A stretch of 64,000 nt of DNA, taken from NCBI GenBank assembly GCA_022749755.1, contig CM040448.1, forward strand, positions 7,190,481 through 7,254,480, given 5' to 3'. Positions 5,985 to 64,000 of the stretch are shown in pieces (within the stretch, counting starts at the first letter, position 1; the number at the start of each line of letters is the position of its first letter). Origin of the DNA: Azadirachta indica. Lineage: Eukaryota; Streptophyta; Magnoliopsida; Sapindales; Meliaceae. The notes under the pieces were generated by a model. It saw only the letters and a program-made list of their open reading frames with translations. It had not been told where the DNA came from and did not search any database. The position numbers and the translations under genes were made by a program.

Positions 5985-5996
5985 TGGTATCAGAGC
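5985..5996 (+). other. Primer binding site (initiator Met-tRNA type)
   Basis: TGGTATCAGAGC follows the LTR end after two bases. This is the usual plant LTR-element primer site, complementary to the 3' end of initiator tRNA-Met. Confidence 0.93.
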
Positions 5997-27017: not shown

Positions 27018-27867
27018 TAATGCAAATACGGATGCACACAAGAGCAATGATCCAATTCAGCTACCTAATGGTCCCGTTACAAGAGCAAGAATGAAGAAAT
27101 TCAAAGATGCATTGAATGGGATGATTCAAGGTTTGTGGGATGATCTTGCAACAATTCAAGAGTGTAAGAAAGAGTCACATATCAAGTTTGGACTTCAAGA
27201 CAATAATCAGAGCTTGGTAACATTGACACAAATACAAGAAGGCAAAACCTAAAGATTAAAGCTTATACGGAATTCAACTTCTCAAATTTGTATAAGGCCA
27301 TATTCGAATGATGTCTCAAGGCTAAGCAAGCATGTTCAAGTCTTTTAATTGCAGTTCGAATCAAATCGTCATCATGATGTAAGTTTCGGATTCCATGTGT
27401 CAGTTTGGGCTAAGTTGTTGTTCAAGCCCATTAGCTATTTTAATCTTATTTATAAACATATATTTATAGTTTGTTATGTGTTTGGGCTGTTAACTCTAAT
27501 TATTAAGCCCAAATTTAGTTTATTTTATTTTAAGTTAGAATAAGTTTAATTTTGTGGCCAAACACTCCAATTAGGGTTACTTATCTTTTGTACTCTTATA
27601 TATTCAGCCACATGCTCCCATGGAGGGGGAATTATTACTTTTTCGAATGAAATTAAATTGAGAGTGTTTTCTCTTGTTTTGATTCTTGCTTGAATCAAGG
27701 TTCTTACAATCAAAGCTAATTACTTTGAGAGTATTTATTTTAAGGTTCTATTTCACAAGTTGAAATTGGGTTGTAGACTTGGGTGAATCTGATTTAACTT
27801 TCCAAGAGGTTGCTTTCATGCGTAAAGATATTGGGTCTCAAGTTTAATATATTCGGGGTTCGTATCA
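27018..27867 (+). repeat. 5' LTR of the 7.1-kb gypsy element
   Basis: Starts TAATGCAAATACGG and ends GTTCGTATCA. A promoter-like region contains CCAATTAGGG (27568-27577) and CTTATATATTC (about 27595), consistent with CAAT and TATA boxes. A 64-residue frame inside it (27349-27543) is not considered coding. Confidence 0.92.
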
Positions 27868-27870
27868 GTT

Positions 27871-27882
27871 TGGTATCAAATC
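27871..27882 (+). other. Primer binding site, diverged
   Basis: TGGTATCAAATC lies three bases after the LTR end and matches 10 of 12 bases of the Met-tRNA-type site seen at 5985-5996. Confidence 0.75.
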
Positions 27883-28709
27883 TACGGCTCTAAATCAGGT
27901 TATATCGTCTTTCAAATTTGTCTATTTATTTCTTTAGTTTCTGAGTCTGTTTTGCTTCAATTCCATTTATTTTCATTTTTTTGTGTCTATTATATCAAAA
28001 AAAAAAAAAAAACAAGAAGAGAGTTTCCTTTCAATTCACAGCAAGTCAAGTTTGGGTTATATCAATCTCCAATTCGGTTGATTTAGTCTTTGTCTAATTC
28101 GTTTCTTTTGTGTCTCTTTTTATTTATTTTTGTTTGGTCACTCCTACGTGTTTGGAAGTAAAAAAAAATAAAAAAAAAAAAGAAGAGAAAAGCAGAGCAT
28201 TTGGCCAAGAGAAGGAAAAAAAAAAAAGGGCAGGTGTTGAACGAAAATAAGGAGAATAAAAAAGAAAAATCAGATTACTTCAAGGAGTTTGACCAAATCA
28301 GGCCTACATTCCAAAATAAGATAGGATTTGCTTCCTAATCTTTCCATAATTTTTAGTTGACTTTCTTATTCCTGTACTGAATTCTTTTTTTTTCTTTGGT
28401 CTTAATATTTCGTTTATCATTTCTAAAATCTATTTCCTAGTCCTTGTGCTTACCCAATTTGTTGCCTATCTAAATTAGTTTTATTTTACTTTTCATTGTA
28501 TTTAGTAAGTTTGTATAAATTTTGATTTTTGCAACTAATCTTAATAAGAGAATTAGAGTGAAAAAAGGCTTAGTGTGAGCTTATCTAGAGAAAAGTCATA
28601 AATTAAGTGTGAAACAGGAGCGAACTTGAGTAATAACATTACCTGAGTGAAACACGTGAGGGAGTGAAGTGAGGAAATTATTCTTTTGCTTTACTAACTG
28701 TCTTGTAGG
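27883..28709 (+). other. Untranslated leader of the gypsy element
   Basis: Purine-rich and A-rich stretches (about 28000, 28155-28225) separate the primer site from gag. No open frame of note is present; this would contain the packaging region in an active element. Confidence 0.7.
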
Positions 28710-30349
28710 ATGAGTGGACAAGCAAGAAATCCACAAGGTGAGATAAATCGATTTCAAGCCTTAACCGAGTTGTTGCAAGCCATGGATAAAAAATATGGAG
28801 AGTTGGTTGATAGAATGGAGAGGCTGGAGGTTTCAGCCACAAGAGGGCAGCCACCTAATGCTCCTAATCCAACCATGCAAACTAGGCGAGTTCCGAGAAG
28901 AGTTCAATTAGATGATAGCTTTAATGATAGTGAATCACTTGATGACAATGGAGAGGAAGAACAGGTGAGACCGAGGGTAAGAAACAATAACAATAGCAAT
29001 AGTAGGGTCAAACTGAAAATTCTACCATTTTATGGAAGAATGGATTCTGAGACATACTTGGATTGAGAAACGAAGATTGAATTAGTGTTTGATTGCAATG
29101 ACTACACTGAATCCAAGAAGTTAAAGCTTGCCGTGGCTATTTTTGAAGCTTATGCTATTACTTGGTGGGATGATACTAAGCAAAAGCGAAGGAGAAATAA
29201 GGAAAAGCTCATTGAAGAGTGGAGAGATCTAAAATCCATCATGCGCAAGAGATTTGTACCAAGCTACTACTATAGAGAATTGTATAATCGACTTCAAAAT
29301 CTCACTCAAGGGTCTAAGATGTTGAGGAATATTACAAGGAGATGGAGGTAGCAATGATAAGAGCAAATGTAGAGGAAGATAATGAAGCTACAATGGCAAG
29401 ATTTCTCAATGGTTTGAACAAGGAGATTTCTAATGTGGTTGAATTGCAGCCATATATGGAGCTAGAAGACTTGCTTCACCTTGCATTGAAGGTTGAGAAG
29501 CAACTGAAAAAGAGAGGTCGTACAAGTCAGTTTTCCTCATATACTTCTTCATTCAAATCAAATTGGAGAAAAGATGATAAAGCTTCATCATCCAAGCCTA
29601 AAATTGAATCCAAAAAGTTTCCCAAAACATCCAACTCAAGCAAAGACAAGGGTAAGCTTGATTCTACTACTAACACCAGAAATATTAAATGTTTTAAATG
29701 TCAAGGTGTAAGACATTACAAGCGGGATTGCCCAAATCAAAGAACCATATTCATGCTTGAGGGAGAGTACTATTCGGCCAGTGAAAAGGAGAATGAACAA
29801 GAGACGATACCAACTCTTGAAGATGCAAGTGATGAAGAAGGGGATGATCAATTTACTATGGCAGAAAGTGGTAAGGCTCTTGTATCAAGAAGAGTTTTGA
29901 ATATGCAAGTCCAACAGGAAGAACGTGATCAAAGAGAGAATCTCTTCCATATTAGGTGTCTTGTAAAGGATAGGGTTTGTGATGTGATAATTGATGGTGG
30001 CAGTGTAACTAATGTTGCTAGTACTACTCTTGTAGAAAAGCTGGGGTTACCTACTTTAAAACATCCACATCCTTACAAGTTGAAGTGGCTTAATGATTGT
30101 GGGGAAATTAGGGTGACAAAACAAGTTCTTGTTGCCTTCAAAATAGGCAAGTATAGAGATGAGTTGTTGTTTGATGTAGTGCCCATGCATGCTGATTATC
30201 TCTTATTGGGACGCCCTTGGCAATTTGACAGAAGGGTGTTATATAATGGTTTTACAAATCATTATACTTTTGAGAAGGATGGGAAGAAAATTACTCTTGT
30301 ACCACTTTCACCTAAAGAAGTTTATGAAGGTGAGCTTAGAAGAATGTAA
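28710..30349 (+). pseudogene. Gypsy gag and protease, broken by stops and one frameshift
   Basis: The start at 28710 follows the leader and opens MSGQARNPQGEINRFQALTE, a coiled-coil-like segment. TGA at 29065-29067 replaces the Trp of the YLDW motif. A 1-base deletion near 29325 shifts the frame. From 29342 the frame holds the capsid C-terminus, the knuckle [14 protein letters not shown] (about 29691-29732, CX2CX4HX4C) and an acidic linker. The aspartic protease follows, with [12 protein letters not shown] (about 29988-30023) and LLGRPWQFD (about 30203-30230). A TAA at 30347-30349 closes it where the copy at 61-2136 has CAA. The product would be the virus-like-particle protein and its processing enzyme. 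Confidence 0.92.
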
Positions 30350-33270
30350 AGTCAGAGAGAAAACAAGAGTGAGAAGAAAAGAATGAGTGAAGGTGTAACA
30401 AAGGAGGGTGAGTTTTCAAAAGAAAAGAGTGGCAAAAATAATGAGAAAGAAAAAAAAGTAAGTTCGAATGGAAAGGGGCAGAATTCAAATGAGGGAAAAA
30501 GAGTGGAGGAAAAAGAAACAATTGAGTGTAAAAAGAAACAAGTGAGCTTTTATGCAAAAAGGAGTGATATTAGGGCGGCTTGGTTTTCCAACAAAAGTAT
30601 ACTTGTACTTATGTACAAAGAACTTTACTTAAACACTAATGACCTTAATACTTCTTTGCCTACTGCATTTGTTTCTCTTTTACAGGCTTATGAAGATGTT
30701 TTTCCCGAGGAGGTACCCAATGAATTGCCGCCCATTAGGGGTATCGAGCATCAGATTGATTTTATTCCTGAAGCTTCAATTCCAAATAAGCCAGCCTATA
30801 GGAGTAATCCCGAGGAGACAAAAGAGCTTCAAAGGCAAGTTGAGGAGTTGTTAACCAAGGGATATATCAGAGAAAGTATAAGTCTATGTGCTGTTCCTGT
30901 TCTGTTGGCACCTAAGAAAGATGGCTCTTGGCGTATGTGTGTTGATTGTCGTGCAATTAATAACATTACGGTAAAGTATCGTTATCCTATTCCTAGGCTA
31001 GATGATATGCTTGATGAATTATATGGTTCTACTATCTTTAGCAAAATTGATTTGAAAAGTAGGTATCATCAAATTCGCATGAGAGAGGGTGATGAGTGGA
31101 AAACTGCATTCAAAATAAAATATGGTCTGTATGAATGGTTAGTTATGCCTTTTGGTTTAACTAATGTACCTAGTACTTTCATGAGGCTTATGAATCATGT
31201 TTTGAAAGATTTAATTGGAAAATTTGTTGTTGTATACTTTGATGATATCCTTGTGTATTCCAAAAATTCGAATGAACACGTAGAACATTTAAGGGCTGTA
31301 CTTGATATTTTAAGGAAAGAAAAGTTATATGCTAACATTAAAAAGTGTTCTTTTTGTTTAGATCAAATTGTGTTTTTAGGTTTCGTGGTAAGTGCTCAAG
31401 GCATTGAAGTTGATGAAGAGAAGGTAAGTGCTATAAAAAATTGGCCTATTCCTAAATCGGTAAGTGAGGTAAGAAGTTTTCATGGATTGGCTAGTTTTTA
31501 TAGACGGTTTGTAAAAGATTTTAGCACCATTGCGGCACCCCTCACAGAGGTAATTAAAAAGAATTGTACTTTTAAGTGGGACAAAGAACAAGAGCATGCA
31601 TTTACTTTATTGAAAGATAAGCTTTGTAAAGCACCCATTCTTGCTTTGCCTAACTTTGCTAATACTTTTGAACTTGAATGTGATGCATCAGGATTGGGCA
31701 TTAGGGCTGTTCTTATGCAGGAAAAGAGGCCAATTGCCTATTTTAGTGAAAAGCTCCATGGCGCCTCATTGAATTATCCTACTTACGACAAAGAGCTTTA
31801 TGCTTTGGTTAGAGCTTTGGAAAACTGGCAGCATTTCTTGTGGTCTAAGGAATTTGTTATTCATACTGACCATCAATCTTTGAAGTTCATTAAAAGTCAA
31901 GGTAAGTTGAACAAACAACATGCCAAATGGGTCGAATTTATTGAGACTTTTCCTTATGTGATTAAATACAAGTAAGGTAAAGACAATGTTGTGGCTGATA
32001 CACTTTCACAGAGGTATACTTCACTTAATACTTTAGATGCAAGAATGCTTGGATTTGAACATATTAAAACTCTTTATGATGATGATACTGACTTTTCTAA
32101 CATTTTCAAAGTATGTGAGAAAGTTGCATATGGTAAGTTTTATAGAATGGATGGGTTTTTGTTTAAAGAAAATAAATTGTGCATACCTATTTGTTCTTTG
32201 AGAGAATTGCTTGTAAAAGAGTATCATAGGGATGGTTTAATGGGACATTTTGGCATTACAAAAACTTTAGATACTTTAGATGACCACTTCTATTGGCCTA
32301 AAATGAAAAATGATGTGCAAAGAGTTTGTGATAGATGTGTTGTGTGCAAACAAGATAAATCCAAAGTTTTAAATCAAGGTTTGTATACTCTTTTACCTGT
32401 TTCTAGTGAACCTTGGACTAATATTTTCATGAATTTTGTTTTGGGTTTACCTAGATCGAAAAAGGGGAAAGATTCTATTTTTGTAGTGGTTGATAGGTTT
32501 TCCAAAATGTCACACTTTATACCTTGTAATAAAACTGATGATGCTACTAATATTGCAAATTTGTTCTTTAGGGAAGTAGTGCATTTGCATGGCATTCCAA
32601 AAACTATTGTTAGTGATAAAGATGTGAAGTTTCTAAGTCATTTTTGGAAAGTTTTGTGAGTAAATTGGGTACAAAATTGTTATATTCTACTACTTGTCAC
32701 CCACAAACTGATGGTCAAACAGAAGTTGTGAATAGGACTTTGGAAACTTTGTTACGTGCTATTATCCAAAAGAATTTGAAGAATTGGGAAAAGTGCATTC
32801 CATTTGTTGAATTCGCATATAATAGAGTTGTGCATTCTACTACTGGTTTTTCACCGTTTGAAATTGTTTATGGCTTTAACCCACTAACCCCTTTGGATTT
32901 AGTTCCTTTACCTTGTGATGAAAGAACTAGCTTAGATGGGAAAACGAAGGCAGAATTGGTGAGAAAACTACATGCAGATGTGCGCAAGAACATTGAAAAG
33001 AAGAATCAACAAATTACAAACCAAGTAAACAAAGGACAAAGGCGTGTTGTATTCGAGCCTGGTGATTGGGTTTGGGTACATATGCGAAAGGAAAGGTTTT
33101 CAACTCAAAGGAAGTCAAAGCTACATCCAAGAGGAGATGGTCCCTTTCAAGTTGTTGAGAAGATCAATGATAATGCCTACAAATTGGATCTTCCTGGTGA
33201 TTATACTGTGAATGCAACTTTTAATGTGACTGATCTTTCTCCTTTTGATGTAGATGGTGAAGATTCGTGA
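30350..33270 (+). pseudogene. Gypsy pol: reverse transcriptase, RNase H and integrase
   Basis: The longest open piece (30383-31975) holds RT with [26 protein letters not shown] and the YFDDIL box (about 31234-31254), then RNase H (LECDASG near 31673; TDHQSLKFI near 31866-31892). TAA at 31973 replaces the CAA seen at 1811. Integrase (31991-33270) has the HHCC zinc finger (HRDGLMGHFG ... CDRCVVCKQDK, 32224-32357). Of its DDE residues the second is seen in IVSDKDVKF and the Glu in [11 protein letters not shown], but the first appears as MNFVLGLP where MDFVLGLP is usual: an Asp-to-Asn change. A 1-base deletion near 32657 shifts the frame. The C-terminal part ([25 protein letters not shown]) runs to a TGA at 33268. 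Confidence 0.92.
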
Positions 33271-33530
33271 ACGAATCATCTTGAGGAGAGAGGGAATGAT
33301 GCAAATACGGATGCACACAAGAGCAATGATCCAATTCAGCTACCTAATGGTCCCGTTACAAGAGCAAGAATGAAGAAATTCAAAGATGCATTGAATGGGA
33401 TGATTCAAGGTTTGTGGGATGATCTTGCAACAATTCAAGAGTGTAAGAAAGAGTCAAATATTAAGCTTGGACTTCAAGACAATAATCAGAGCTTGGTAAC
33501 ATTGACACAAATACAAGAAGGCAAAACCTA
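33262..33530 (+). pseudogene. pol tail continuing into the 3' LTR
   Basis: Past the TGA at 33268-33270 the same frame stays open through the polypurine tract and about 230 bases of LTR (LPNGPVTRARMKKFKDALNG, then GLWDDLATIQECKKE) to a stop near 33528. In the copy at 2095-2370 the first stop is absent and the frame crosses without interruption. The LTR-encoded tail therefore looks like a genuine part of pol, now cut off here by a CGA/TGG-to-TGA-type change. Confidence 0.7.
33282..33296 (+). other. Polypurine tract
   Basis: GAGGAGAGAGGGAA ends directly at the TGATGC start of the 3' LTR. Confidence 0.92.
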
Positions 33531-34146
33531 AAGATTAAAGCTTCTACGGAATTCAACTTCTCAAATTTGTATAAGGCCATATTCGAATGATGTCTCAAGG
33601 CTAAGCAAGCATGTTCAAGTCTTTTAATTGTAGTTCGAATCAGATCGTCATCATGATGCAAGTTTCGGATTCCATGTGTCAGTTTGGGCTAAGTTGCTGT
33701 TCAAGCCCATTAGCTATTTTAGTCTTATTTATAAACATATATTTATAGTTTGTTATGTGTTTGGGCTGTTAACTCTAATTATTAAGCCCAAATTTAGTTT
33801 ATTTTATTTTAAGTTAGAATAAGTTTAATTTTGTGGCCAAACACTCCAATTAGGGTTACTTATCTCTTGTACCCTTATATATTCAGCCACATGCTCCCAT
33901 GGAGGGGGAATTATTACTTTTTCGAATGAAATTAAATTGAGAGTGTTTTCTCTTGTTTTGATTCTTGCTTGAATCAAGGTTCTTACAATTAAAGCTAATT
34001 ACTTTGAGGGTATTTATTCTAAGGTTCTATTTCACAAGTTGAAATTGGGTTGCAGACTTGGGTGAATCTGATTTATCTTTCCAAGAGGTTGCTTCCATGC
34101 ATAAAGATATTGGGTCTCAAGTTTAATATACTCGGGGTTCGTATCC
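33297..34146 (+). repeat. 3' LTR of the 7.1-kb gypsy element
   Basis: Starts TGATGCAAATACGG and ends GTTCGTATCC. Differences from the 5' LTR are about 17 transitions and 4 transversions by hand count. Confidence 0.92.
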
Positions 34147-44520: not shown

Positions 44521-46295
44521 GGGAAAGTGACATATTTTCGTTTAATGATTCGTACAAATATTTCTTTACGTTTCGTAAAAGAAAAATATTTTTCTTACGT
44601 TTAAATAGACAGGTAAATAACCTTAAATTTTTATTTTTTATATTTGATCAATTAATTTATTATCATTTATATCTCTTATTTTTTATATAATAATATTATA
44701 ATATATATTTTATTTAATTATAATATTTTACTTTTTATTTTAATATTTTTTACAATATTTTTTTATAAATATAATAATTTAGTCCATATTCATAATATAT
44801 TCAAGACTAAATATATTTTCAATTTATTATTTCAATAGAAAATTTAGAAAATAAAATATTATTAAAAAAATTTAAATAATAAGTTAAATTAAATTTATAT
44901 TAAAATATTTTAAACTCATATTAAAATATTTATATATTTTTTTTTTTTTTTTTACAATAAATTTTATATTTAATTGTTAAAAGAATTTTAAAATATATTT
45001 TAACATTTTATTCTTATATTAATATTTTTATTTAAAATATTATATTAAATTTATTATATTTTCTTAAGAAAATTATGAAAATATAAATAAAAAAGTTAAA
45101 AAAAAAAAAATAAATTTAGTATCATTTGCTAATAAAATTAGTAATTAAATATATTCTATATTCTTATTAACCAATATAATTTAATTTTAATTAAAAAAAA
45201 GAAAATTTCTTATTATTTTTATTTGTAATATATATAACATGTATTTATTATTTATATTTTTATATATTTTTAAAAAAATTATAATAAATTTAACATAATT
45301 TTTTAAATAAATATATTACATGTAAAAATAAAACGTTAAAAAATATTTCAATTAAATTCTTTAATAATTAAATATTTATTATTATAAAAGTGAAAGTAAA
45401 GGATTAAAAATATATTAACATATGAGAATCACTTATTTTATTATTTGAATTTTTTTAATAATTGTATTTTTAAAATTTTTTATTAAAATAACAAATTAGA
45501 AAATTTATTTATTCTTGAATATATTGTAAAAAAATATTAAAAATATATGAAAATATAACTAATAAATACATGTTATATATATTACAAATAAAAATAATCA
45601 AAAATTTTCTTCTTTTTCTATTATTTAATTAAAATTAAATTATATTAGTTAATAAGAATATAAAATATATTTAATTATTAATTCTATTAACAAATAATAC
45701 TAAATTTTTTCTTTTTTTATCTTTTTTATTTATATTTTCATAATTTTTCTCAAAAAAAAAATAAATTTAATATAATCTTTTAAATAAAAATATTAATATA
45801 ACAATAAAATGTTAAAATATATTTCAAAATCTTTTTAACAATTACATATCAAATTTATTGTAAAAAAAAGAAAAAAAAGATATAAATATTTTAACGTGAT
45901 TTTAATCAAACTCATTGTTCAAATTTTTTTAATAATATTTTATTTTCTAAATTTTCTATTGAAATAACAAATTGAAATTATATTTAATCTTGAGTATATT
46001 GTAAAAAAAATATTAAATATAGACTAAATTATTATATTTAAAAAAATTATATTATGAAAAATATTAAAATAGGGAGTAAAGTGTGATAATTAAAATAAAA
46101 TATATATTATATTATTATTATATAAAAAATTAGAAACACAAATAATAATAAACTAACTGGTCAACTAATAAAAATAAAAGTATAGGACGTTATCTGACTA
46201 TTTATCCAAATATTAAAGGGCATCTATTTTTTCTTAAACATTAAGGAGTATCTTCCTATTAGACTAAACATTAGGGGAGAATATGTCATTTTCCC
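44521..46295. mobile_element. Palindromic non-autonomous MULE (1775 bp, very long inverted repeats)
   Basis: The ends GGGAAAGTGACATATT (left) and GGGAAAATGACATATT (right, complement) are inverted, and similarity continues inward through almost the whole element. For example 44940-45290 mirrors about 45540-45890, and ATTTAGTCCATATTC-type sequence mirrors ATAGACTAAATTATT. Flanks AATTGGAAT (44512-44520) and TTTTGGAAT (46296-46304) agree at 7 of 9 positions, fitting a MULE duplication. It is over 80% A+T by eye and encodes nothing. Such a structure can fold into a long hairpin and is a potential source of small RNAs (inference). Confidence 0.75.
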
Positions 46296-50778: not shown

Positions 50779-52419
50779 TTTCGTCTATCTCTGAAACTTT
50801 CTTTTAATTTTTTTTTTATTTAACTGAAACAGAACCCATTTCAGTAAGACAACTCGATCAGTTTTCCAACCTGAAAAGGAAACCGAAACCTGAAAGTCTA
50901 TGGTCCCGATTTAGCGAAATGCCGAAATTAACAGATACCTCCCCTAAAGTTTCCAAAACCATCAGTTGATGGACGAATATAAAAGATATTACAGATGAAC
51001 CCTAAGTAAGTTTACTGTGCATACTTAAGTATAAATTGTTGTCTTCAGCCAAAAACAAGCATAACTCACGAAATGTAATCATTTTACTTGTAATTTTCAA
51101 ACAATTGAATGCCTTAAAGTATGTTAGTATGAGTCTAGTTGAGTCAAACAAAGATCAACGAAAAAAACTAATTTCTTTTTGTAATTGAAGATAGTGTTTG
51201 TATGCCATCTATTAATTGATTTCGGAGGAAATTATAGTGTGTCTCAAACCCGTTTGAAATTGTTGTTTAACAAAGTAAAATTGGTTTTAAATAATCAAAA
51301 AATTATTTTAGATATTTGGTAAAATTTTTTTAAAATTATTTTTATAAAATCATCTATCTTATACCTAATTTTGAGAAGTGGGAGAATAATTGTTTTTCAA
51401 AATTTAATTTTAAAAATCAATTTTATCTTTAAATATAACATCAAATATATCCATTAAAATTACAAATATTTAAAATTAATCCTACAATAATTATTAAATT
51501 TTAATTTTAATTAAGAAATAAAATTTTTTAAAATAAAATATATTTTCTTTTTATAATTTTGTACTTTTATTTTTATTTTATAATTAAAATTTATATAGTT
51601 TTACTATAAATTAGTTTAAGTTAGCATATATACATACATACAATCATACACAAACGTGTAAATTATTATCTAAAATTTAATTTTCATTCATGATTATTTA
51701 TTATGTATATTTTGATCATTTGCCTTATTACAATATTTTAACAATAAAATTTATCAAATCACAAAACTACATTTCAAATTCATAATATTTTTTAAAAAAT
51801 TTATCAAACACTAAACTGATTCTCTTGAAAATTAATAATTTCTACAATACAATAGAAGCAAATTATTTTAATATTTATAGTAATCTTAAACTAACCCTCA
51901 ATGCTTATGATTAAGTACTCATTTGATTTGGTTTTTTCATTGACTAAAAGTGTTTTTATAATGATAAAATCTCTTTTAAAATTTTTAATGTCGTTTGATT
52001 AACAATAGAAAAAGATTTTTTAGAAAAAGCCATTTTACTTTTATTAAAAGAAGTCAAAAAATTGAGTTTTTAGTAGTAAAATTTTTCCAATTTTTTTTAA
52101 AAGATAACATTATCTAAAATACTTTACTTTATATAAAAATTTTACGTTATTTCTTTAAAATAAAACATTAAAATTTTGTCTATTAAAATAATTACTCAAA
52201 TTATTTTCAAAAATTATTTGTGACAACTAAATAATTAATAAACTTTTATTAAAAACTCTACTTATAAAAGCTTTATAGATAAAAAGTCTATTCCAAAAAG
52301 CTCATTTGTAAAGATATATCAAACGGACCCTAAATTTCTTAATTAAGGGACTATGATTGTATTTGGGAAGCTTTTATATTACTCTCATACTATTTTTTAT
52401 CCTTAAAAATTTAGCTATT
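50779..52419. other. Non-coding AT-rich interval
   Basis: No gene recognised. The stretch 51910-52335 ends in ATCAAACGGACCCTAAA, a terminus style seen in small plant TIR elements, but a matching inverted left end was not convincing. Confidence 0.5.
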
Positions 52420-52646
52420 GGAGGCTAACACTACATTCAAGTTTGATTATTTAAGAGAACTTTTGTCATTATTGTCTACTTATTTTTAATCAATGGGAAA
52501 TATTATTGTTTTTCTAGTACTTATCAACCATTGGCTCAAGTCAATAATGGTTAAAAAAATTTTGAACCTCGTATGTTGAGCTATGTTGTACTTATAATGC
52601 TAAAGTTGAATTTTATTTAATTTTATTTTCTTATCTTCTATGAAGT
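52420..52646 (-). pseudogene. hAT transposase (DUF4371/ZMYM1-like), C-terminal piece
   Basis: Reading minus from 52646, the frame begins DFIEDKKIKLNKIQL and, past a stop, continues HYKYNIAQHTRF and LTIIDLSQWLISTRKTIIFP. These are the family's landmarks just before the hAT dimerisation region (usual pattern QLxHY...F...LSTISDLCQWLV.T). The reading then dissolves near 52420, and no clear dimerisation motif follows. The piece starts exactly at the target duplication (GAAGT, i.e. ACTTC on minus) of LTR type A. It continues the middle piece, which ends ...GGACTTC at 60452 on the opposite strand. Confidence 0.75.
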
Positions 52647-53380
52647 TGATAAAAACCCATTGGATGACCTATTTTAAAAACTCTTGAATCAATTGTATGC
52701 ACACCCCAAGAACTAGAAAATAAATTGTAGATGATAAAATTAAAACTTAAGAAAATAAATCCTTAAAATTCCAATCATAAAGATACCACAAAGGTTGATC
52801 ACTCCTTTGATAAGTCAAGATATTGTATTCTACCGAGAACACAAGAAAGTAAAACTATACTTGCTCAAAATTTCTCAATATTATTAATGATGTGATGTTT
52901 TTTCGTTTACATAGCAGTAACCTTTATATAGGCATGTAAACATCATTTCAAAATTAAGTAGGAGAAGAAACCGCAAATAAAAAAGAAAACTAAAATTTTA
53001 ATATAATTAGGAAATATAACAATTCTAAATAAAGTAGGAAACTAATTTTATGTAAAGTAAATAATTTAAACCAAATAAGAAATCTTTAAAGCCTTAATTT
53101 TCCCACGTGGCATTAGGATTTAGTAGTGCAAAGCTATTCTTCTTCTTGCACATAAAGGTAAGTAATTATCTTTGGTGAAGCTTTGAAAATTTTTAGAACA
53201 GCTTTAAAATCTTATATAATAGCTTATTTGTCATGCACTTGGATGATTAAACTTTATAAAGCCTCTTTCATGCTCTTTGTCTTTAAGTTCGTCATTAGAC
53301 CACCAACTCCTTGCAAAGGATCTTAAAAATATTTGGGAATGTTATCTTGAATCATTTGGCCAGTGCTACGATCTCCATTA
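52647..53380 (-). repeat. Gypsy LTR type A, 3' LTR of the minus-strand element
   Basis: On minus it starts TAATGGAGATCGTAGC after a polypurine tract (GAGAGGGAGGAAA, 53381-53393) and ends GGGTTTTTATCA. It aligns with 60453-61208 along its length (GCACTGGCCAAAT, AAATCCTAATGCCAC, TATAAAGGTTACTGCTATG, CAATTGATTCAAGAGTT), but not with the first half of the LTR at the other end of the same internal region. The base after its end gives ACTTC on minus. Confidence 0.9.
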
Positions 53381-56157
53381 TTTCCTCCCTCTCGAAAGGA
53401 TTCGTCCTCGAATCACCTACATCAAATAAAGATAAATCAGCAACATTAAAAGTCGCACTAACATTACCATAGTTATCTGGTAAATCTAGTTTATAGGCGT
53501 TATCATTGATTCTCTCCAAGACTTGAAATGGTCCATCTCCTTTAGGTTGTAATTTCGATTTCCTTTGTGTAGGAAACCTCTCCTTACGCATGTACACCCA
53601 AACCCAATCTCCAGACTCAAAACAATCTTCAAACGCCCATTATTAGCTTGCTTAGCATATTGCTCATTCTTTCTTTCAATGTTAACCCGAACTTTGGCAT
53701 GTAAATCATTCACAAAATCTGCCTTTTTCTTACCATCAAGATTAATATGTTCATTAGTAGGCAAAGGTAAAATGTCCATAGGAGTTAAAGGATTAAAGTT
53801 ATAAACAATTTCAAAAGGTGAAAAAAAAGTAGTAGAATTAATAGACCTATTATATGCAAACTCAATATGTGGCAAACACTTCTCCCATTGCTTTAAGTTC
53901 TTTTGAATGATAGCACGCAACAAAGTAGTGAGTGTCTTATTAACTATTTCAGTTTGACCATCCATTTGCGGACGTACAACAATAGAAAATAAAAAGTTTA
54001 GTTCCTAATTTATTCCATAAAGTGCGCCAAAAATGACTTAAGAACTTAATATCTCTATTACTAACTATTATCTTAGGCAAATCATGTAAACGAACAACTT
54101 TTTTAAAGAATAAGTCAACAATATATGTTGCATCATTGGTTTTAGAACATGCAATAAAATGAGCCATTTTACTAAACCTATCAACAACAAATATACTGTC
54201 TTTACCACTTTGAGACCTTTGTAAACCTAAAACAAAATCCATAGAAATATCAATCGAAGGTTGGGTAGGCATTGGTAAAGGGTTATACAAGCCATGCAAT
54301 TTAACTTTAGATTTTGCTTGCCTATATGTAATGCACTTATTATAAATAAATTGTACATTATGCTTCATATTAGGCTAATAAAAATGCTTACGCAATATAT
54401 CTAAAACCTTTTGTATACCAAAGTGTCCCATCAAGCCGTCTCCATAAGTTTCTCTAACAAGTAACTCACGAACAAAACAAATAGGCACACACAATTTATC
54501 TTTCTTAAATAGAGATCCTTCATGCCTATAGAAATCACTAAACATACACTTATCACATGCACTCCATACTTGGCTAAAATCAGAATCATTAGCATACAAG
54601 TTTTAATCAATTCAAAACCAAGTAATTTAGTTTGCAAAGATGTAAATAATGCGTACCCCTAGATAATGCATCAACAACAACATTTTCCTTTCTATGTTTG
54701 TACCTAATCACATACGAAAATGTTTCTATGAACTCTAACCACTTAGTATGCCTTTTATTAAGCTTACCTAACGATTTCAAGAACTTTAAGCTCTCATGAT
54801 CAGAATGATTAATGAATTCCCTTGGCCACAAGTAATGTTACTATGTTTGAAGAGTTCTCATTAATGCATAAAGTTCCTTGTCATAAGTAGAATAATTCAA
54901 GGCTGGCCCACTTAGCTTTTCACTAAAATAAGCAATCGATTTAGAATCTTGCATTAAAACAACCCCTATTCTAATTCTAGATGCATCATATTCTACCTCA
55001 AAAGGTTTATCAAAGTTAGGCAAATAAAACAAAGGTGCATTAAGTTAGCTTATCTTTCAATGTTTTGAAAGCCCGATCATGCACATCATCCTACTTAAAA
55101 ACAATATTCTTTTTAACAAGTTCATTCAAAAGTGTAGTAATAGAACTAAAATCCTTAATAAACCTTTAATAAAAACTTGCTAATCCATGAAAATTTCTTA
55201 CCTCGTTCGCATTCTTATGTGTAGGCCAGTCCTTTATTGCCTTTACCTTCTCTTTATCAACAGTAATACCTTGCGAACAAACAACGTATCCAAGAAACAC
55301 AACAGATTCCATGCAAAACATGCACTTCTTAAGATTAGCATACAATTGGTGCTCTCTTAACACACTAAAAATAGCATGCAAGTGTTTCACATATTCATCC
55401 AAATTTTTGTTATAAACTAAAATATCATCAAAGTAAACTACCACATATTTCCCTATAAAAGCACGCAGGACATGATTCATTAACCTCATGAATGTATTAG
55501 ATGCATTTGTTAAACCAAAAGGTATTACTAACCACTTATACAATTCATATTTAGTTTTAAATACTATCTTCTATTCATCTCCTTCTTTCATGCGAATTTG
55601 ATAATAGCCATTCTTTAAATCAATTTTAGAAAACAAACAAAAGTCATATAATTCAGCAAGCATATCATCTAATATAGGGATAGCATGTCTATACTCAACC
55701 GTTATTTTATTAATGGTTCGGCAATCCACACACATACACCATGTTCTATCCTTCTTTGGAACTAAGATGACAAGAACCGAACATGGGCTAAGACTCTCCT
55801 TTGTAAAACCTTTTTGCACTAACTCATTTACTTGCCTTGTATCTCCTTTATTTCCTCGGGATTAGCTCTCTAAGCAGGTCGATTTGGTATGGAGGAATCA
55901 GATATGAAGTCTATTTGATGCTCAATACCTCTTAAAGGAGGTAATCCATGGGGAATCTCCTCGAGAAATATGTCTGCAAACTTTTGTAATAAAGACACAC
56001 AAGTATTGGGCAAAGAGGGGTTAAGGTCATTAGTAGAAAAGTAAATATCCTTATACATAAGTACAAGTAGTTGCTGCCTTACAATCATAATAATACTCTT
56101 AACCTCATTTTTTTCAACAAATACACTCATTCCCTTACTTTTCTCTCCTTTTTTCAC
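53352..56157 (-). pseudogene. Gypsy pol (RT, RNase H, integrase), decayed
   Basis: Read leftwards from 56157: linker, [13 protein letters not shown] (near 55900-55950), RT with KIDLKNGYYQIRM and the YFDDIL box (about 55420-55440), and RNase H ([21 protein letters not shown]). Integrase follows with an HHCC region (GHFGIQKVLD ... ), [13 protein letters not shown] (first Asp kept), IVSNRDIKF (Asn where the second catalytic Asp is usual) and QTEIVNKTL. The C-terminal [15 protein letters not shown] and [11 protein letters not shown] precede the polypurine tract. At least seven frame breaks or stops split it, including near 55570, 55166, 54840, 54607, 54375 and 53960. It is the same superfamily as the plus-strand elements but a distinct family. 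Confidence 0.9.
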
Positions 56158-57808
56158 ACTTTCTCTCTAATTTTCCTCTCGACCTCACTCTTTTCACTTG
56201 CACTTTTCCTCTCGATTTCACTTGCTCTCTTTACTTTTACTTGTTCATAATCCTTCTTTTTCTTTTCCTCTAGCTCAGACATTTGTTCTTCTCTCATTTT
56301 ACATTCTCTTACTATCCTAATTCGATCTTCATAAGTTTGCAAAGGTTTAAGAGGGGTTAGTACAACAGTTCGGTTATTTATTATAAAAGAATAAAGATTT
56401 TTATACCTATTATTTGTAACCTTTCGATCAAACTACCATGGTTGGCCAAGCAATATATGACCAGCTTGCATTGGTGCCACATCACATAAAATCTCATCCT
56501 CATACTTGCTAATTGAAAAGGAAACTAAAACTTACTTGGTTACCCTCATTTCTCCATATTCATTTAGCCATTGCAATTTGTACGGTTTAGGATGCTTTAT
56601 AGTAGGTAAATTCAGCTTATCTACCAACAAATACTAGTAACATTAGTATAACTTCCACTATCAATAATCATAGTACATATCTTATCCTTCACATGGCATT
56701 TTATGTGAAAAATATGCTTACGTTACTCCTCATCAACATCATCCTTAGGCTATATACTTAGGGCTCTTTTTGTAACCAACAAATCTCCATGCACAGGTTC
56801 TTTAACTTCAACATCAAATCAATTCTCCAATGGTGGCATCTCATCCTCACTTGAGTTAACACTTTCTATTTCTCCATTCTCCAACACAATCATAACTCTT
56901 TTGTTTGGCCATTAAGAAGCAATATGCCTAAATCTTTGGCACCTAAAACACTTAACTTCACGTGACTTAAAAGAAGTTTTAGTTTCAGTTTTACCTTTAG
57001 AAACAATAACAGAATCCTTTTGCTTTCCATAAAGAACTAGAAACTGATCTAGATCTGAACTTTTTTTATTTGATTTGCTTTTCCATTTTAATGGCTTTGC
57101 GCAATAGCTCCTCCATCTCCATATAGTGTTGTAAATCAACCACATCAGCAATCTCCTTATTTAAACCACCAACAAATCTTGCCATTATTGCTTCTCGATC
57201 TTTTTCTATGTTTGCTCTAATCATAGCTATCTCTATCTCCTTATAATAGTCCTCTACACTCATGGAACCTTAAACCAGCCCTTGCAACTTTCTATGCAAA
57301 TCTCTATAGTAATGGATAGGTATAAATCTCTTGCGCATTATCAATTTCATCTTTTCTCATAACCGAATTGGCCTTTCTCCATTCCTATGCCTATTGATCA
57401 CCAATTGGTCCCACCATATGCTTGCATAATCTATGAACTCTATCGTTGCTAATTTTACTTTCTTCTCCTCGGAGTAATTATAGCAATCAAATATGTGTTC
57501 AACCTTTCTTTCCCACTCTAAGTATAGTTCGAGATCATTCTTTCCTTGAAAGATCGAAATCTTCATTTTTATACTGCCCAAATTGCTATCTCTTTTTAAA
57601 AAACGGCTTTCTTGCCTCATTTAGAACTTGATTCCTCCAAATCTAAGTCATCTTCTTCTTTGTCCTCAAACATACATCTTCTAGTGATTTTAGATGTAGA
57701 TAGGAATTGCAATTCATCCAGTCTAGTATTCAATTTTCTAAATTGTTCATTAACAGCTTTTATGAACATTTTCATGTCAACTTCTTGTGGTTTTCCTTCA
57801 CTACTCAT
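56158..57808 (-). pseudogene. Gypsy gag and protease, decayed
   Basis: Starts with MSSEGKPQEVDMKMFIKAVN at 57808, followed by the capsid region (LYLEWERKVEHIFDC, near 57480-57530) and a stretch with [20 protein letters not shown]. The partial knuckle CFRCQRFRHIAS (about 56910-56950) has a stop right after it. The protease is recognisable by IIDSGSYTN (about 56650-56680). The linker before pol is unusually rich in Glu/Lys/Arg. Several stops and frameshifts are present, so no product is expected. Confidence 0.85.
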
Positions 57809-58724
57809 GTTATGAATTAAAGAAATTTATTTCTCTCACATACTCTCATGTGTTTGGATTGAAATCTGATTGTTATCGCTCGTGTTTCTCATTAATTTGA
57901 TGATGGTCTCACCACTTTCTCCTTTTATCAGTCAAACCAGCCCTCTTTATGTTATTAAAGAATCCAAATCAACAAATCTCATGAGTAATCGGTTAGATAG
58001 TGGTAAATCTCAAAACCAAAACGTTAAACATTTAGTTAAGGTAAACAGCAACAAGAAAGAAAATTAAAAGAGCCAAAAAAATAAGAAAACTTCAAAAGAA
58101 AGTAAAAAGCATGTAAAAGAAATAATTAGAATACAATGAATTGAATAGCAAAGCTAAAAAGACACAAGTGCGCAATTGAACTCAAATAGGATAAATAAAA
58201 TATGGAGTATGAAATTAAATTAATTTAGCCACAGGAATTCTTATTTGATAAAGATTACTACTATTTAAGAAAAAGGAATTCTAACTTGAAAAGGAATATA
58301 CAGGTAGCTTTAAATTAGTCAACTAGTCGATTCCAAAAAAATAAATAGAAAAGAGATTATATTATGACTTACTTAACTAGGAATATGATCTTGTGGTTCA
58401 AGAAATTCTTTTTATACAAAGGATTAAAATTTACAATCTAACCCTTTTTTTTTGCTTTTATTTAATTATTTTTTCTCTTTTTTTTATTTTTTCATTTTTT
58501 TATTTTTTTTAATTGGATCTTTCTTTCAATCTCTCTCTCTCTCTCTTTTTTTTTTTTTCCACCAAACTAAACATACAAGAGAAAATTGAATCTATTAAAA
58601 ATACAAAGAAGACGAAAAAAATTGAAGAAAGCTTTGCAAAGACAACACAAGAATAGAACAAAAGTCAAAGAAAAGCACAAAACAAAGATAAGTAAAGGAT
58701 AAGTAACCTATTTTTAGAGACAAA
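57809..58724 (-). other. Leader of the minus-strand gypsy element
   Basis: Untranslated stretch between the primer site and gag, with a (CT/GA)n and poly-T region on plus (58440-58560). No other feature is seen. Confidence 0.65.
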
Positions 58725-58736
58725 GCTCTGATACCA
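58725..58736 (-). other. Primer binding site of the minus-strand element
   Basis: TGGTATCAGAGC on minus, two bases from the LTR end at 58739; identical to the site at 5985-5996. Confidence 0.93.
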
Positions 58737-58738
58737 AA

Positions 58739-59574
58739 TGATAAGAACCCACTTGACGACTTGCTTTAGGAACTCTTAAATCAATTGTTATACTTTGATA
58801 CCAACTGATGTGAACCTAACTAAAGACGTAACAAAACCCAATACCGAACGTGATTATAAAATCTTGTCAACAATGTGACAGAAACCCGACACCAAATGTG
58901 ATATGCAACCCCAAGATTTTCAAGACGCAAATTTGTTAAGCCTTAACCCGTTACCTAATAAGATAAGAAGTAAGAACTACAGTTGTTTGAAAACGCCACA
59001 CCAAAAATCTCAAGAACCACTAAAGAATCAAAATAATAAGTCTAGTTATTGAACGCCACAAGAATATAATTTTTGATAAGTTCACAAGTTTTTAAAAGAA
59101 CTAAAAAAATAATTTATTTCTCATTGAAAACAATATTGAGAATCAATGTTCTGATTTTCAACACAATGTTAGCCCCATATAAATAGGCTAATAAAAATCT
59201 AAATAAAATAGAAATGTAAAATTAAGTATGAATAGAAAATCCTAACTTATATAAGAATAAAAAATCTTAAATTAAAAAAAAAAACTGTAATCTTAATCTA
59301 ATTAAAAAACATAAAAATAACAATTCTAAACAAATTAGGAAACTAATTCTATATTAAATAAGGTATCTTCAAAAGCCTAAATTATTCATGTAGCATTAGG
59401 ATTTAGTAGCGTAGAGATATTTTATTCTTCTTCTTGCAACCCACTTGAATTCTTGTCATGTATTCAAGCCATCTCTTGTAATTTGGCCCACTTGAAAAGT
59501 TTAATGGATTATATGAATGCAGCCTTAAGTCTTTCCAAGCTTATATGCATGGTTGCACAACTTTGTTCGTATCA
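58739..59574 (-). repeat. Gypsy LTR type B, 5' LTR of the minus-strand element
   Basis: On minus it starts TGATACGAACAAAGTTGTGC and ends GGGTTCTTATCA. It aligns with 61418-62318, not with the type-A LTR at the other end of its own element. It contains a primer-site-like TGGTATCAAAGT (58792-58803) about 55 bases before its end. The outer flank is ACTTG (59575-59579), which does not match the flank of the type-A end at 52642-52646. Confidence 0.9.
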
Positions 59575-60452
59575 ACTTGAGGGTAATGATACGATGGTAT
59601 GAGTGATAGACAAGGTGAGTGGAATGGTTCATAGGCTTCAATTTTGAAAGATTGTCCATATGCTTACTCTATTTATTGTTTAGCATATTGATTATAATTG
59701 TTACTACTTGTAGCATCTTATGAAATTATCCTTAATTAATTTTTTCTTACTAAATTGACTTTTATTATGAATATTATTAATGCTTCATGTAATCACAATG
59801 AGAAGCTTAAATGTGCTTAAGTAACTGAAGTTGAGCATATGGTTGCTATTGGTGAACTTGAGACTAAGAAAGAAATTAATTAGATTAAGACTTTACAAAA
59901 GGCTAGCGACACTCAAGGTTCTCATTTTAGATTAGTTTCTAGTTTAATAAAGATATTCAATGCAACATGTTCTATTTTACTTAATATTATTGATTATGGT
60001 ACTATTGCTTTTCAATGAAGAGATGTTAATGCCACTAATAAGGCAATTACTTCATACGAGTTTGTTTTCATCTTACATCTCATGAAAGATATTATGTCAA
60101 TCATCAATTTATTTTGTCATAGTTTACAATCCCTATCTCAAGACATTCTAAGTGTTATACATCTTGCTTCACCAACCAAAAGATGTATTCAAGATTTGAG
60201 GGATAACGTTACTTGATAAAATGAATTAATTTTTTGAGGCATGCAGTATAGATATTCCAAACATGAATCTCTTTATATTGCAAGATGAGGTGCTTGCAAT
60301 CAATAAGTTAACTTTACAATTGCTCTGAATCATTGGGTAAACATTTTTTATATTACTTAATCTTAGTTAATGTTTAGATCCCAATGAAGGTTATAAGTCT
60401 TTCAAAATTGATGATTTTTGTCAACTAGTCAGCAATTTTTCTCAAGGACTTC
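59575..60452 (+). pseudogene. hAT transposase (DUF4371/ZMYM1-like), middle piece, inverted relative to the others
   Basis: From the first bases it gives the family's GYDG region (TACGATGG near 59591), GEWNG, ILKDCPYAYSIYCLA (about 59640-59690), then VEHMVAIGELETKKEIN and DTQGSHFRLVSSLIKIFN, where DTRWGSHF is usual. NIIDYGTIAFQ, SYEFVFILHLMKDIMSI, SQDILSVIHL and EGYKSFKIDDFCQLV follow, ending at GGACTTC. Many codons are C-to-T or G-to-A stops. The N-terminal piece ends and the C-terminal piece begins at the exact residues missing here, but both lie on minus. So this segment has been inverted. Confidence 0.8.
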
Positions 60453-61208
60453 TAATCGAGATTGAGGCACTGGCCAAATTATTCAAGATAATATTTTCAA
60501 ATATTTTCAAGATCCTTTACAAGAAATCGGTGGTCCAATGATTAGGTCAAAGAGAAAGAGGATGAAAGAGGTTTTACAAAGTTTAATCATGGAAGTACAT
60601 GGCAAAGAAGCTATTATACAAGATTATAAGGTTGTTCTAAAAGTTTTCAACGTCTCACCAAAGATAATCACTTACCTTTATGTTCAAGAAGAAGAATAGC
60701 CTGCGCTACTAAATCCTAATGCCACATGGAAAAATTAAGGCTTTAAAGATTCTTTATTTGGTTTAGATTGTTTACTTTACATAGAATTAGTTTCTTACTT
60801 TGTTTAAGATTCTTATGTTTCCTAATTAAATTAGAATTTAAGTTTTCTCTTTTATTTGGGGTTTCTTTTCTGATGTACGTTAGGATTTTTTTTCCTACTT
60901 AATTTTGGAATGATGTTTACATACTTATATAAAGGTTACTGCTATGTAAACGAAGAAACATTAAATCATTAATAATATTGAGATATTTTGAGCAAGAGTA
61001 ACTTTGCCTTCTTATATTCTTGGTAGTTACAATATCTTGACTTATCAAAGAAGTAATCAACCTTATTGGTGTCTTTATGATTGAAATTTTAAGGATTTAT
61101 TTCCTTAAGTTTTAATCTGATCATTTACAACTTGTTTTCTAATTCCTGGGCTGCACATACAATTGATTCAAGAGTTCTTAAATCAGGTTATCTAGTGGAT
61201 TCTTATCA
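60453..61208 (+). repeat. Gypsy LTR type A (5' LTR, plus orientation)
   Basis: Starts TAATCGAGATTGAGGC and ends GGATTCTTATCA, followed two bases later by a primer site. The five bases before it are ACTTC (60448-60452), identical to the five bases beyond the end of the type-A LTR at 52647 read on minus. The two type-A LTRs are therefore the ends of one insertion, now on opposite strands. Confidence 0.9.
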
Positions 61209-61417
61209 TTTGGTATCAGAGCTTTGGTTTCAAGGTAAATTTGGTTTATTATTTAATTGCTTTATTGTTTCTTCTTTCTTGAATTAAAATTCTAAAAAAA
61301 AATAAAAAATAAAAAATAATGTGAAAAAAAATTGTGGCCGAGTTTTTTCTTTGTTCTTTCTTGTTTGATTTTTGCTAAACTAGATTTGAGGACAAATCTT
61401 CATCAAGAGGGGGAGAA
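61209..61417 (+). mobile_element. Remnant gypsy interior: primer site, leader, pol tail, polypurine tract
   Basis: The primer site TGGTATCAGAGC (61211-61222) and about 160 bases of leader pass directly, near 61380, into the last pol codons (DLRTNLHQEGEN-like) and a polypurine tract AAGAGGGGGAGAA (61405-61417). The whole of gag and nearly all of pol, about 5 kb by analogy, are absent. Confidence 0.85.
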
Positions 61418-62318
61418 TGATGCTAATAAAGTTATGCAACCATACATATAAGATGGAAAACTCTCACATATGCTTGGAAAGACTTAAGGGTAGAGTTCAT
61501 ATAATCCATTAAACTTTCCAAGTGAGCTAAATTACGAGAGATGAGCTGAATGCATGATAAGAATTCAAATGCATTGCAAGAAGAAGAATAAAATATCTCT
61601 ACGCTACTAAATCCTAATGCCACATGAAAAATTTGGGTTTTTGAAGATTCCTTATTTAATATAGAATTAGTTTCCTAATTTGTTTAGAATTGTTATTTTT
61701 ACGTTTTTTAATCATATTAGGATTACAGTTTTTTTTCTTTAATTTAGAATTTTTTATTCTTATATAAGTTAAGATTTTCTATTCCTACTTAACTTTGAAT
61801 TTCTATTTTATTTAGGATTTTTAGTAGCCTATTTATATGGGCTAATATTGTGTTGAAAATCAGAACATTGGTTCTCAATATTGTTTTCAAAAAGAAATAA
61901 ATTATTTCTTTAGTTCTTTTAAAAACTTGTGAACTTATCAAGAATTATATTCTTGTAACGTTCAATAATTAGACTTATTATCTTAATTCTTTAGTGGTTC
62001 TTGAGATTCTTGGTATAGCGTCTTTAAACAATTGTAGTTCTTGGTTCTTATCTTATAGGTAACGGGTCAAGGCTCAGCAAACTTGTGTTTTAAAAATCTT
62101 GGGATTCCATATCACATTTGGTGTTCAGTTTCTGTCACATTATTGACAAGATTTATTATCACGTTGGTTTTGAGTTTTATCATATTGTTGGCAAGGTTTA
62201 ATGTCACGTTCAGTATTGGGTTTTGTCATGTCGTTGACGAGATTCACATCAATTGGTATTAGAGCATAACAATTTATTCAAGAGTTCTTAGAGCAAGTCG
62301 TCTAGTGAGTTCACATCA
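61418..62318 (+). repeat. Gypsy LTR type B (plus orientation)
   Basis: Starts TGATGCTAATAAAG and ends GAGTTCACATCA. A primer-site-like TGGTATTAGAGC lies inside it (62254-62265), followed by a tail resembling the end of type-A LTRs (TTATTCAAGAGTTCTTAGAG). The part before that fossil site resembles the LTR of the element at 5182-10361. The right flank is CAAAT (62319-62323), which pairs with the complement of ACTTG (CAAGT) outside the other type-B LTR. Confidence 0.88.
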
Positions 62319-62950
62319 CAAATATTTTGAATACTTAAATTGTAGTGAGATAATACAAAATATATCCTTTCCTTTAAGGTTGATGCAGAAGTATTAGTGA
62401 CATAAACAAAACCAAAAAAATGTTCTACCACAAAATCTTCTTTGTCAACAAATCTCAAAACTATAGCAATTTATTCTCGCTTTGCTTCATCACATGTTTT
62501 ATCAACAATAAACAAAACTTTGCATCCTTGATTTCTTCACAAATTACTTTCTTTACTCGACTTGAATTTATTCTCGCTTTAAATTTGAGGTGACGTATAA
62601 GAGGCATATTTTAGAGCTTTATCCAACATGATTTTTGCAAGTTTTTGGTTATTTAAAGCAAATGCTTTTAATAATTGAAGAAAATTTCCACATTTAATTG
62701 AACCTTAGTTTTCATTATGACCTCTAAAAGCACACACTAGAAAAACAAGGTATCTAATTGCTTCAATTGAAGTCTTAAGACACATTGATTAATTACAATT
62801 TCTTGAGAAGAATAATGTTTATGTACCTATCTTATATGTTGAAATTGGCACATCAAATTCTTATATGATCTCTCAACAGTTTTGTAAGGTGAGTTAGAGT
62901 CATTTCTACATGATTCCATGAAAGCACAATTTTTTTGTCTTTCAATTTTT
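62319..62950 (-). pseudogene. hAT transposase (DUF4371/ZMYM1-like), N-terminal piece
   Basis: Read leftwards: NSPYKTVERSYKNLMCQFQH (about 62840-62900), frameshifted VCAFRGHNEN (about 62715-62745; FRGHDE is the family motif), KCGNFLQLLKAFALNNQKLA, MLDKALKYA. After decay come VEHFFGFVYVTNTSA and KERIYFVLSHYNLSIQNI, ending in ATTTG at 62319. The order and spacing match the N-terminal half of plant DUF4371 proteins (ERFLGIVHVxDT pattern). The next expected residues (RGQGYDG) are at 59580 on plus. Confidence 0.78.
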
Positions 62951-64000
62951 TCCAAATTTAAATCTCTAAATTATAAAGTTTGCCTAAAATATCTAGATAG
63001 CTTATTAAAAAGATAACTTTATAACAATTCGGTCCTAAAACCAAATAAATATTGTTCGCTTTGGACACACAGTCCGTTATAGGTTTTTTTTTTTTTCGGG
63101 CTTTCAATCCAAAACACTTGTACTCAATTAAAGGAACCCAAGGCTTATAGCCCAATCGCATCTCATTCTTGCAAGCAATGTGAGATGTAACAAACATGAT
63201 AGATAAAACGACGCATCTTTTATGTGAAAATATTCCAACCAAGAAGGAAAAGAATTAAACCATGAAAATCAAAAACTATGAGGATGATTTGTTGGACTTG
63301 ATTTTGGATACTTTAGAAGTTTTGATTGGTATATTTGAATTAGTTGAAAAATATATAGGAAAAATAAAAATTAAAAACAAAGAGCTTTTCAAGTGTAAAA
63401 AGATCACATTTGTTGTATTCATTAATTTATTAATAGAATCCTTTTATGCACATAAAACTATTATTTTTTTAAGAGATAAAGAACAAAGTTTAGTAATAAA
63501 CACGAATTAGTTTGAAGGCATTTTAACGCATACCTCCTCTAAGATTTGTGACTTAGATAAAAAATTTAAGGAAAGAAACACTAACCTCCCTTATGATCAT
63601 CCACCATTGTTAGTCGATCGTTTGAAGTAAAGGTAATTTGATAAAAACACAAGTAGCTTTACTCTTTTATGATAGGATCATTATTCATTTGAGAGAGCAT
63701 TTTGTAGAGAAAAATGGATAAAATATCTTAAAATCCTCCAATATTTTGGTATCTACATGCATGTTTACAAATATATATATATATATATAATGATTCAAAC
63801 CAAGCAAGACAGGATTGGTTCCAATTTAGCTATTAGGATTTGAGATAGCTTGAGGAGCTTTCAAAACTTGTTCTTTCTTTGCATGAAGTGCTTCCACTTG
63901 GCTTCGATTTTTTGGAGTTTGACCCTTCAATTTTCCGGATTCTTTCTATCTTGAAAGTTATCTTTCTTCTCTTAATCCTGTCTACCAATATTATGTTCTT
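62951..64000. other. No confident feature; possible hAT 5' flank
   Basis: The 5' end of the hAT gene would lie here on minus, but I could not recognise its TTF-type zinc finger. Open frames at 62958-63242 (minus) and 63262-63510 (plus) have no family features. An (AT)n tract is at about 63770-63789. Confidence 0.45.

Follow-up and report, generated by a model that had tools for sequence, protein, structure and literature searches.

The window, a stretch of 64,000 nucleotides at C9:7190481-7254480 within a 280.8-Mb assembly of 21 contigs, contains a hAT/DUF4371 transposase pseudogene in three pieces, with two LTR retrotransposon inserts lying between them. Positions 52300-63100 were reread, subjected to repeat searches, and compared part by part with the rest of the genome. 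The best 40 candidates were scored in each genome search, and any absence reported here is an absence among scored matches.

The three pseudogene pieces were delimited by their matches to paralogues: piece 1 at 62319-62950 on the minus strand, piece 2 at 59575-60452 on the plus strand and thus inverted relative to the other two, and piece 3 at 52480-52646, again on the minus strand. An initial annotation of this DNA had read them as one DUF4371/hAT gene in minus, plus, minus order, and that reading held. Without the two inserts, the pieces were collinear at four loci elsewhere in the genome, and alignment to these intact-order paralogues placed all three next to each other and in order; two stretches of piece 1 also matched the Pfam profile DUF4371 (PF14291) in order, at profile positions 64-130 and 157-219. 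The limits of the gene required adjustment. Piece 3 had been drawn from 52646 to 52420, of which the paralogue match sustained the part down to about 52480 but not the remainder to 52420; piece 1 had been started at 62950, which is sound as a hAT piece but not as a limit, the match running upstream to about 63333. This upstream part is interrupted at about 63018-63192 by an insertion of about 175 bp, bounded by short AAC repeats.

Two of the collinear paralogues were located on contig C12, one at 6476032-6477585 (piece 1 at 6476032-6476643, piece 2 at 6476641-6477430) and one at 1479834-1478279 (pieces 1 and 2 spanning 1479834 down to 1478434). The third was located at C14:18418837-18420365 (piece 1 at 18418837-18419412, piece 2 at 18419414-18420204) and the fourth at C1:9353279-9360731 (piece 1 at 9353279-9353884, piece 2 from 9353886 to 9354648). 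In the C1 paralogue about 6 kb separate the parts that match piece-2 positions 775 and 780, away from both joins. A fifth hAT locus, on C8, shows this order too, though broken up and with parts of the pieces only, and at all five loci piece 3 comes after pieces 1 and 2. Because the paralogues carry the pieces in tandem and in one order, the minus-plus-minus arrangement, though real in the assembly, is not ancestral. The piece-2 stretch that was tested against Pfam gave no match. The C-terminal dimerisation part of hAT transposases (Dimer_Tnp_hAT) was present in a C12 paralogue (5.1e-6) and was not found in the window copy, where piece-3 homology ends before the domain; the flank at 51801-52419 had no match at the hAT loci.

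Repeat searches confirmed the four LTR intervals of the initial annotation, and comparison with family members and trees assigned them to two types. The A-type LTRs lie at 52647-53380 (minus; 3' LTR of insert 1) and 60453-61208 (plus; 5' LTR of insert 2), the B-type LTRs at 58739-59574 (minus; 5' LTR of insert 1) and 61418-62318 (plus; 3' LTR of insert 2). Identity was 83.2% (BLAST) within the A pair and 84.0% within the B pair over 58739-59547/61465-62318. Insert 1, on the minus strand, consists of a B-LTR, a primer-binding site, a 5.36-kb internal region, a polypurine tract, and an A-LTR; insert 2, on the plus strand, consists of an A-LTR, a primer-binding site, a 209-bp internal region, a polypurine tract, and a B-LTR. 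Both 5' LTRs are thus in chimeric position. That each insert has one LTR of either type, and that 61209-61417 is a complete B internal region, had been missed in the earlier account of the locus.

The internal region of insert 1 (53381-58738, minus) is a decayed Ty3/gypsy-type region with an A-type leader, as judged from protein profiles and genome comparison. It matched the reverse transcriptase profile PF00078 at 55166-55570 (1.4e-20) and the integrase profile PF00665 at 53949-54374, the latter at 1.2e-4 and 22.7 bits, under the curated cut-off of 32.6; both are on the minus strand, with reverse transcriptase upstream of integrase on one coding strand. A third frame tested by profile (53486-54004) gave no match. 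The internal region of insert 2 (61209-61417, plus) was recognized by genome comparison as B-type, complete, and ending in the polypurine tract. Reading of the sequence located TGGTATCAGAGC, which we take to be the primer-binding site, after the B-LTR of insert 1 (58725-58736, minus) and after the A-LTR of insert 2 (61211-61222, plus).

Copies elsewhere in the genome show the same boundaries for both families. Among 28 A-LTRs fetched from other loci, TAATGG forms the start of 24 and TATCA the end of 19; one (L063) is bordered by GACTC on both sides. Five B-LTRs had no partner within the flanks retrieved, and one of them (L003) is bordered by ATATG twice; on C6, a canonical B element with two B-LTRs shows the target duplications ATGCA/ATGCA. 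The long form of the B-LTR, seen in the window at 61418-62318 (near 62245-62270) and at 58739-59574, contains an inner stretch resembling an LTR end and primer-binding site some 50-65 nt before its end. Other B-LTR copies pass into the internal region at this inner site, at about position 835-848 of 901; the long form looks as if the LTR had been extended.

Each insertion site is marked by a 5-bp target duplication whose halves now lie beside different inserts. For A, ACTTC at 60448-60452 (plus) pairs with ACTTC on the minus strand at 52642-52646; for B, CAAAT at 62319-62323 (plus) pairs with CAAGT on the minus strand at 59575-59579. The initial annotation had noticed that these duplications fit only across strands, and the count agrees: pairing across inserts matched 5/5 (ACTTC/ACTTC) and 4/5 (CAAGT/CAAAT), as against 0/5 and 0/5 for the local pairings within inserts. 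At this base composition a chance match has a probability of about 0.002 for 5/5 and 0.027 for 4 or more of 5. The paralogues carry each 5-bp target once (the B site as a single ATTTG in both C12 paralogues; the A site as ACTTC in the C14 paralogue and ATTTC in C12), so the overlaps at the piece joins are 5-bp duplications. The overlap at the A site was exactly 5 when measured against C14 and 3 against C12, where coordinates were extrapolated across a small indel. A base-by-base tally of the two C12 paralogues (327 differences) was distorted by indels and carries no weight here. Together, the gene order and the cross-matching target duplications support a local inversion well.

The region occurs twice in the assembly. 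The sequence from window position 51636 to 14.8 kb past the window end (78825 in extended coordinates; C9:7269305) recurs inverted at C9:15344725-15371920. This second copy, 27 kb long and 8.1 Mb away on the same contig, is 99.35% identical (119 substitutions in 27.2 kb) and contains the same chimeras; it is bounded by a 100-N scaffold gap (15371921-15372020) and, on the other side, by an abrupt loss of similarity. Between 58749 and 63030, no substitutions and only four one-base indels were observed over 4,281 nt. When 119 changes were placed at random 20,000 times, the longest gap was 3,069. Gene conversion would explain the substitution-free tract, as would an assembly that used one consensus twice. 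Other near-identical, often inverted pairs recur on single contigs (C12:5793126/359421, C4:1802871/527652, C6:9834693/10650241). Such pairs hint at two haplotypes left uncollapsed and scaffolded together, and on that view the second copy may be allelic instead of a product of segmental duplication.

The association of LTRs with internal regions differs between this locus and the rest of the genome. The insert-1 leader had 41 matches. Two of them, in the window and its second copy, have a B-LTR directly upstream; the other 39 include 12 with a scored A-LTR directly upstream, none with a B-LTR, and 27 without a scored LTR. The 209-bp region had 40 matches, with an A-LTR upstream and a B-LTR downstream in the window and second copy; a scored B-LTR borders 13 of the remaining 38 on one or both sides, an A-LTR borders none, and 25 are blank. 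Blanks carry no information, as the LTR tables comprised the best 45 of 418 and the best 45 of 959 first-look candidates. The matches are also partly non-independent, with near-identical copies on one contig (C10, C7, C6, and C3 for A; C8 and C5 for B) and, for B, tandem arrays on C6 and C8; to judge from equal scores, near-identical LTRs, and the tree, the 12 A-leader and 13 B-region matches probably represent about 7 and about 8 independent insertions. Queries spanning the chimeric junctions were matched at full length only by the window and the second copy (2 of 41 and 2 of 40 rows among scored matches), and the other 38 rows of the 40-row search begin no earlier than the final ~55 nt of the LTR (query positions 127-133). 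One candidate for a further A-LTR/B-internal chimera, the only near-complete row (C11:7708889-7709125), was rejected: it is an ordinary A element, with an A leader (75% alike over 260 nt) behind its A-LTR.

Trees were built from the A pair with 28 other copies and the B pair with 8, fetched from the 45 rows of each table. Over 200 bootstrap trees, the two A-LTRs grouped as a clade in 86% (branch support 85/70) and the two B-LTRs in 78% (77/92). The K2P distance was 0.158 within the A pair (median of all pairs 0.163) and 0.128 within the B pair (median 0.153). The two A-LTRs are no closer to each other than to many family members, the copy at 60453 being nearer another copy (0.151), and the two B-LTRs of the window are each other's nearest. 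These distances fit a burst of near-equal age and, with moderate sister support, are supportive of the pairing of LTRs rather than conclusive, as distances alone do not prove it. A substitution rate of 1.3e-8 per site and year, which may not be that of the host (a plant, to judge from the element types and the initial annotation), would put the insertions at about 5-6 million years.

The best explanation of the locus, and one that we regard as very likely, is the insertion of A and B followed by an inversion through the ends of their 5' LTRs and the adjoining primer-binding sites. The reconstructed order of events would be as follows: two related LTR retrotransposons inserted in opposite orientations into one hAT (DUF4371) gene, element A (minus; a coding element of the Ty3/gypsy type) and element B (plus; about 2 kb, with 0.9-kb LTRs and a 209-bp internal region). 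A crossover, or repair by strand exchange, within the stretch of 5' LTR end and primer-binding site that A and B share would then have flipped roughly 2.47 kb (about 58739-61208), a segment with the 5' LTRs of B and of A and, between them, hAT piece 2. This would have left a pair of reciprocal chimeras in which each has an LTR of either type and the local target duplications are mismatched. Finally, the 27-kb stretch with this result would have come to be present twice, either because it was later duplicated segmentally or because a second haplotype was left uncollapsed. On coordinates, turning 58739-61208 back would yield A-LTR/A internal/A-LTR between ACTTC and ACTTC, and B-LTR/B internal/B-LTR between CAAGT and CAAAT. 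The crossover is placed at the LTR end and primer-binding site because only this history starts from two canonical elements.

The two sides of the likely crossover zone are 58721-58788 (minus), with the last 50 nt of the B-LTR plus 18 nt that include the primer-binding site, and 61159-61226 (plus), with the last 50 nt of the A-LTR plus the corresponding 18 nt. These 68-nt segments are 88% alike and inverted to each other at the chimeric junctions. In their middles the A- and B-LTRs show 70-73% similarity across 188-239 nt, and 76% in one 54-nt piece; other A/B pairs of LTR tips are 77-80% alike over 48-50 nt. The most alike A/B stretch therefore coincides exactly with the chimeric junctions (88% as against 70-76% elsewhere in the LTRs), and beyond AGAGCTTTGG the leaders are family-specific. 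Before the event the similarity of the A and B tips may have been lower than the 88% of today, and 68 nt is a short substrate for homologous recombination, which counts against this placement. Both junctions end in the A-like TTCTTATCATTT, and the B 3' LTR ends in TTCACATCA; the exchange was thus not perfectly reciprocal to the base, unless the B 5' end has mutated or been converted. The A-like tips at both junctions suggest that a short conversion tract or a later mutation would be needed. A conversion tract is only suggested, because some B-LTRs (L005, L007, L068) likewise end in TTCTTATCA.

The initial annotation had proposed two LTR insertions into one hAT gene followed by an inversion, and this outline stands, as undoing the inversion restores both the collinearity of the gene and the two target duplications. 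Its breakpoints did not survive. It had attributed the event to recombination between the two B-LTRs, flipping 59575-61417, which would restore gene order and target duplications equally well and would use long inverted repeats of 84% identity, a far longer substrate than 68 nt. The precursor, however, would have had one insertion combining A-LTR, B internal region, B-LTR, and A leader, and a second consisting of a lone B-LTR; these adjacencies occur in no scored match outside the locus and its second copy, and we consider this route unlikely. The A-LTRs at 52647-53380 and 60453-61208 are long inverted repeats too (83%), and recombination between them would turn piece 2 by flipping 53381-60452. 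Its precursor would be a solo A-LTR together with a composite of B-LTR/A internal/A-LTR/B internal/B-LTR, whose junctions were likewise found in no scored match, and we give it only a very slight chance. Both sets of breakpoints were rejected because they require non-canonical precursors: the gene is restored and the elements are not.

An assembly artefact, in which the piece between inverted repeats was laid in backwards, is quite improbable, if a little less so than recombination between the A-LTRs. The region is built of inverted repeats, and the substitution-free tract of the second copy could reflect one consensus used twice. Against this, the window contains no N, and the second copy has the same order. 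This copy is weakened as an independent check, since the substitution-free tract lies over the chimera and the copy is possibly an allele, and it speaks only in part against an artefact. Had the long B/B or A/A repeats been misjoined, LTR and internal types would not have been swapped; a misjoin would presumably have to pass through the 68-nt stretch. We find it barely credible that the chimeric inserts arose by template switching during reverse transcription and were inserted ready-made. Reverse transcription normally gives two LTRs of one type, and the inverted gene piece and cross-matching target duplications, which it would leave unexplained, already contradict this reading. In its favour, mosaic LTR elements formed by recombination during reverse transcription are among the subjects discussed for fission yeast (PMC10085805).

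With inversion at the LTR end and primer-binding site as the preferred history, the locus is an unusually complete record, in that the order of the host gene, the target duplications, and the types of LTR and internal region all indicate the same inversion; the two types narrow the crossover down to about 70 nt. Judging from this locus, two retrotransposon families may be able to recombine via the LTR-end/primer-binding-site region alone. Dating either present insert from its own two LTRs would be wrong. An A-LTR followed by a B internal region, or a B-LTR followed by an A leader, provides a simple signature for searches elsewhere. It is a doubtful but conceivable extension that the LTR end and tRNA primer-binding site, near-invariant across diverged families, form a recurrent genomic crossover point, at which opposite insertions would yield micro-inversions and pairs of LTR-swapped chimeras, and that the inverted structure attracts gene conversion between duplicates, as in the 4.28-kb tract.

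A coding Gypsy-type element at about 5180-10364 of the same window, flanked by TTTAA/CTTAA, has LTRs related to those of B over part of their length. Positions 1-115 of the B internal region match its leader (5983-6097; 79%) and positions 175-209 match its 3' end (9547-9581; 86%); the A leader, too, aligns with this element over its first 72 nt (77%), and no further. From these alignments, B looks like a short, non-coding internal-deletion derivative of the 5180-10364 element or a similar lineage, presumably moved by proteins supplied from elsewhere. Other repeats in the window include a young LTR element at 27020-34145, whose LTRs (27020-27866 and 33299-34145) share 97.8% identity, another fragment of its family at 61-2984, a 1.6-kb AT-rich palindrome at 44602-46204 (78% match to its own reverse complement), and adjoining tandem duplications of about 0.88 kb (87%) and 0.49 kb (87%) at 17093-18864 and 18873-19849.

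The LTRs of TRIM elements are generally limited to a few hundred bp. At 836 and 901 bp the LTRs of B exceed this, and B is therefore filed as a non-autonomous deletion derivative and not as a TRIM. B resembles TRIMs and similar short non-autonomous elements, a topic of PMC6934838, in having two LTRs, a short internal region, a primer-binding site, a polypurine tract, and 5-bp duplications. Element A agrees with Ty3/gypsy elements (Metaviridae) in the order of its domains, with reverse transcriptase before integrase, and in its 5-bp duplications; it differs in that its reading frames are decayed and one LTR has been swapped with B. The host gene resembles hAT DUF4371 (ZMYM1-like) transposases: two stretches of piece 1, in the right order, and a single paralogue stretch match the profile, but the window copy is a three-piece pseudogene without a recognised C-terminal dimerisation part.

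The event is a clear but ordinary genome scar, and the kind of system is not new. A literature search, with most subscription journals outside its reach, found no report of the same case. The type of event is already known, and the locus is a fresh instance of it: ectopic inter-element recombination of LTR retrotransposons was reportedly treated by Devos et al. in 2002. It is also among the topics discussed with REANNOTATE (PMC2672092). As in that discussion, the LTRs of one insertion are found in different elements, local target duplications are mismatched, and the intervening DNA is rearranged. Relative to the cases covered there, the present locus differs in that the recombining partners were opposite in orientation and of different types, and in that the outcome was a small inversion, with both products lying side by side and the crossover at the LTR end and primer-binding site.
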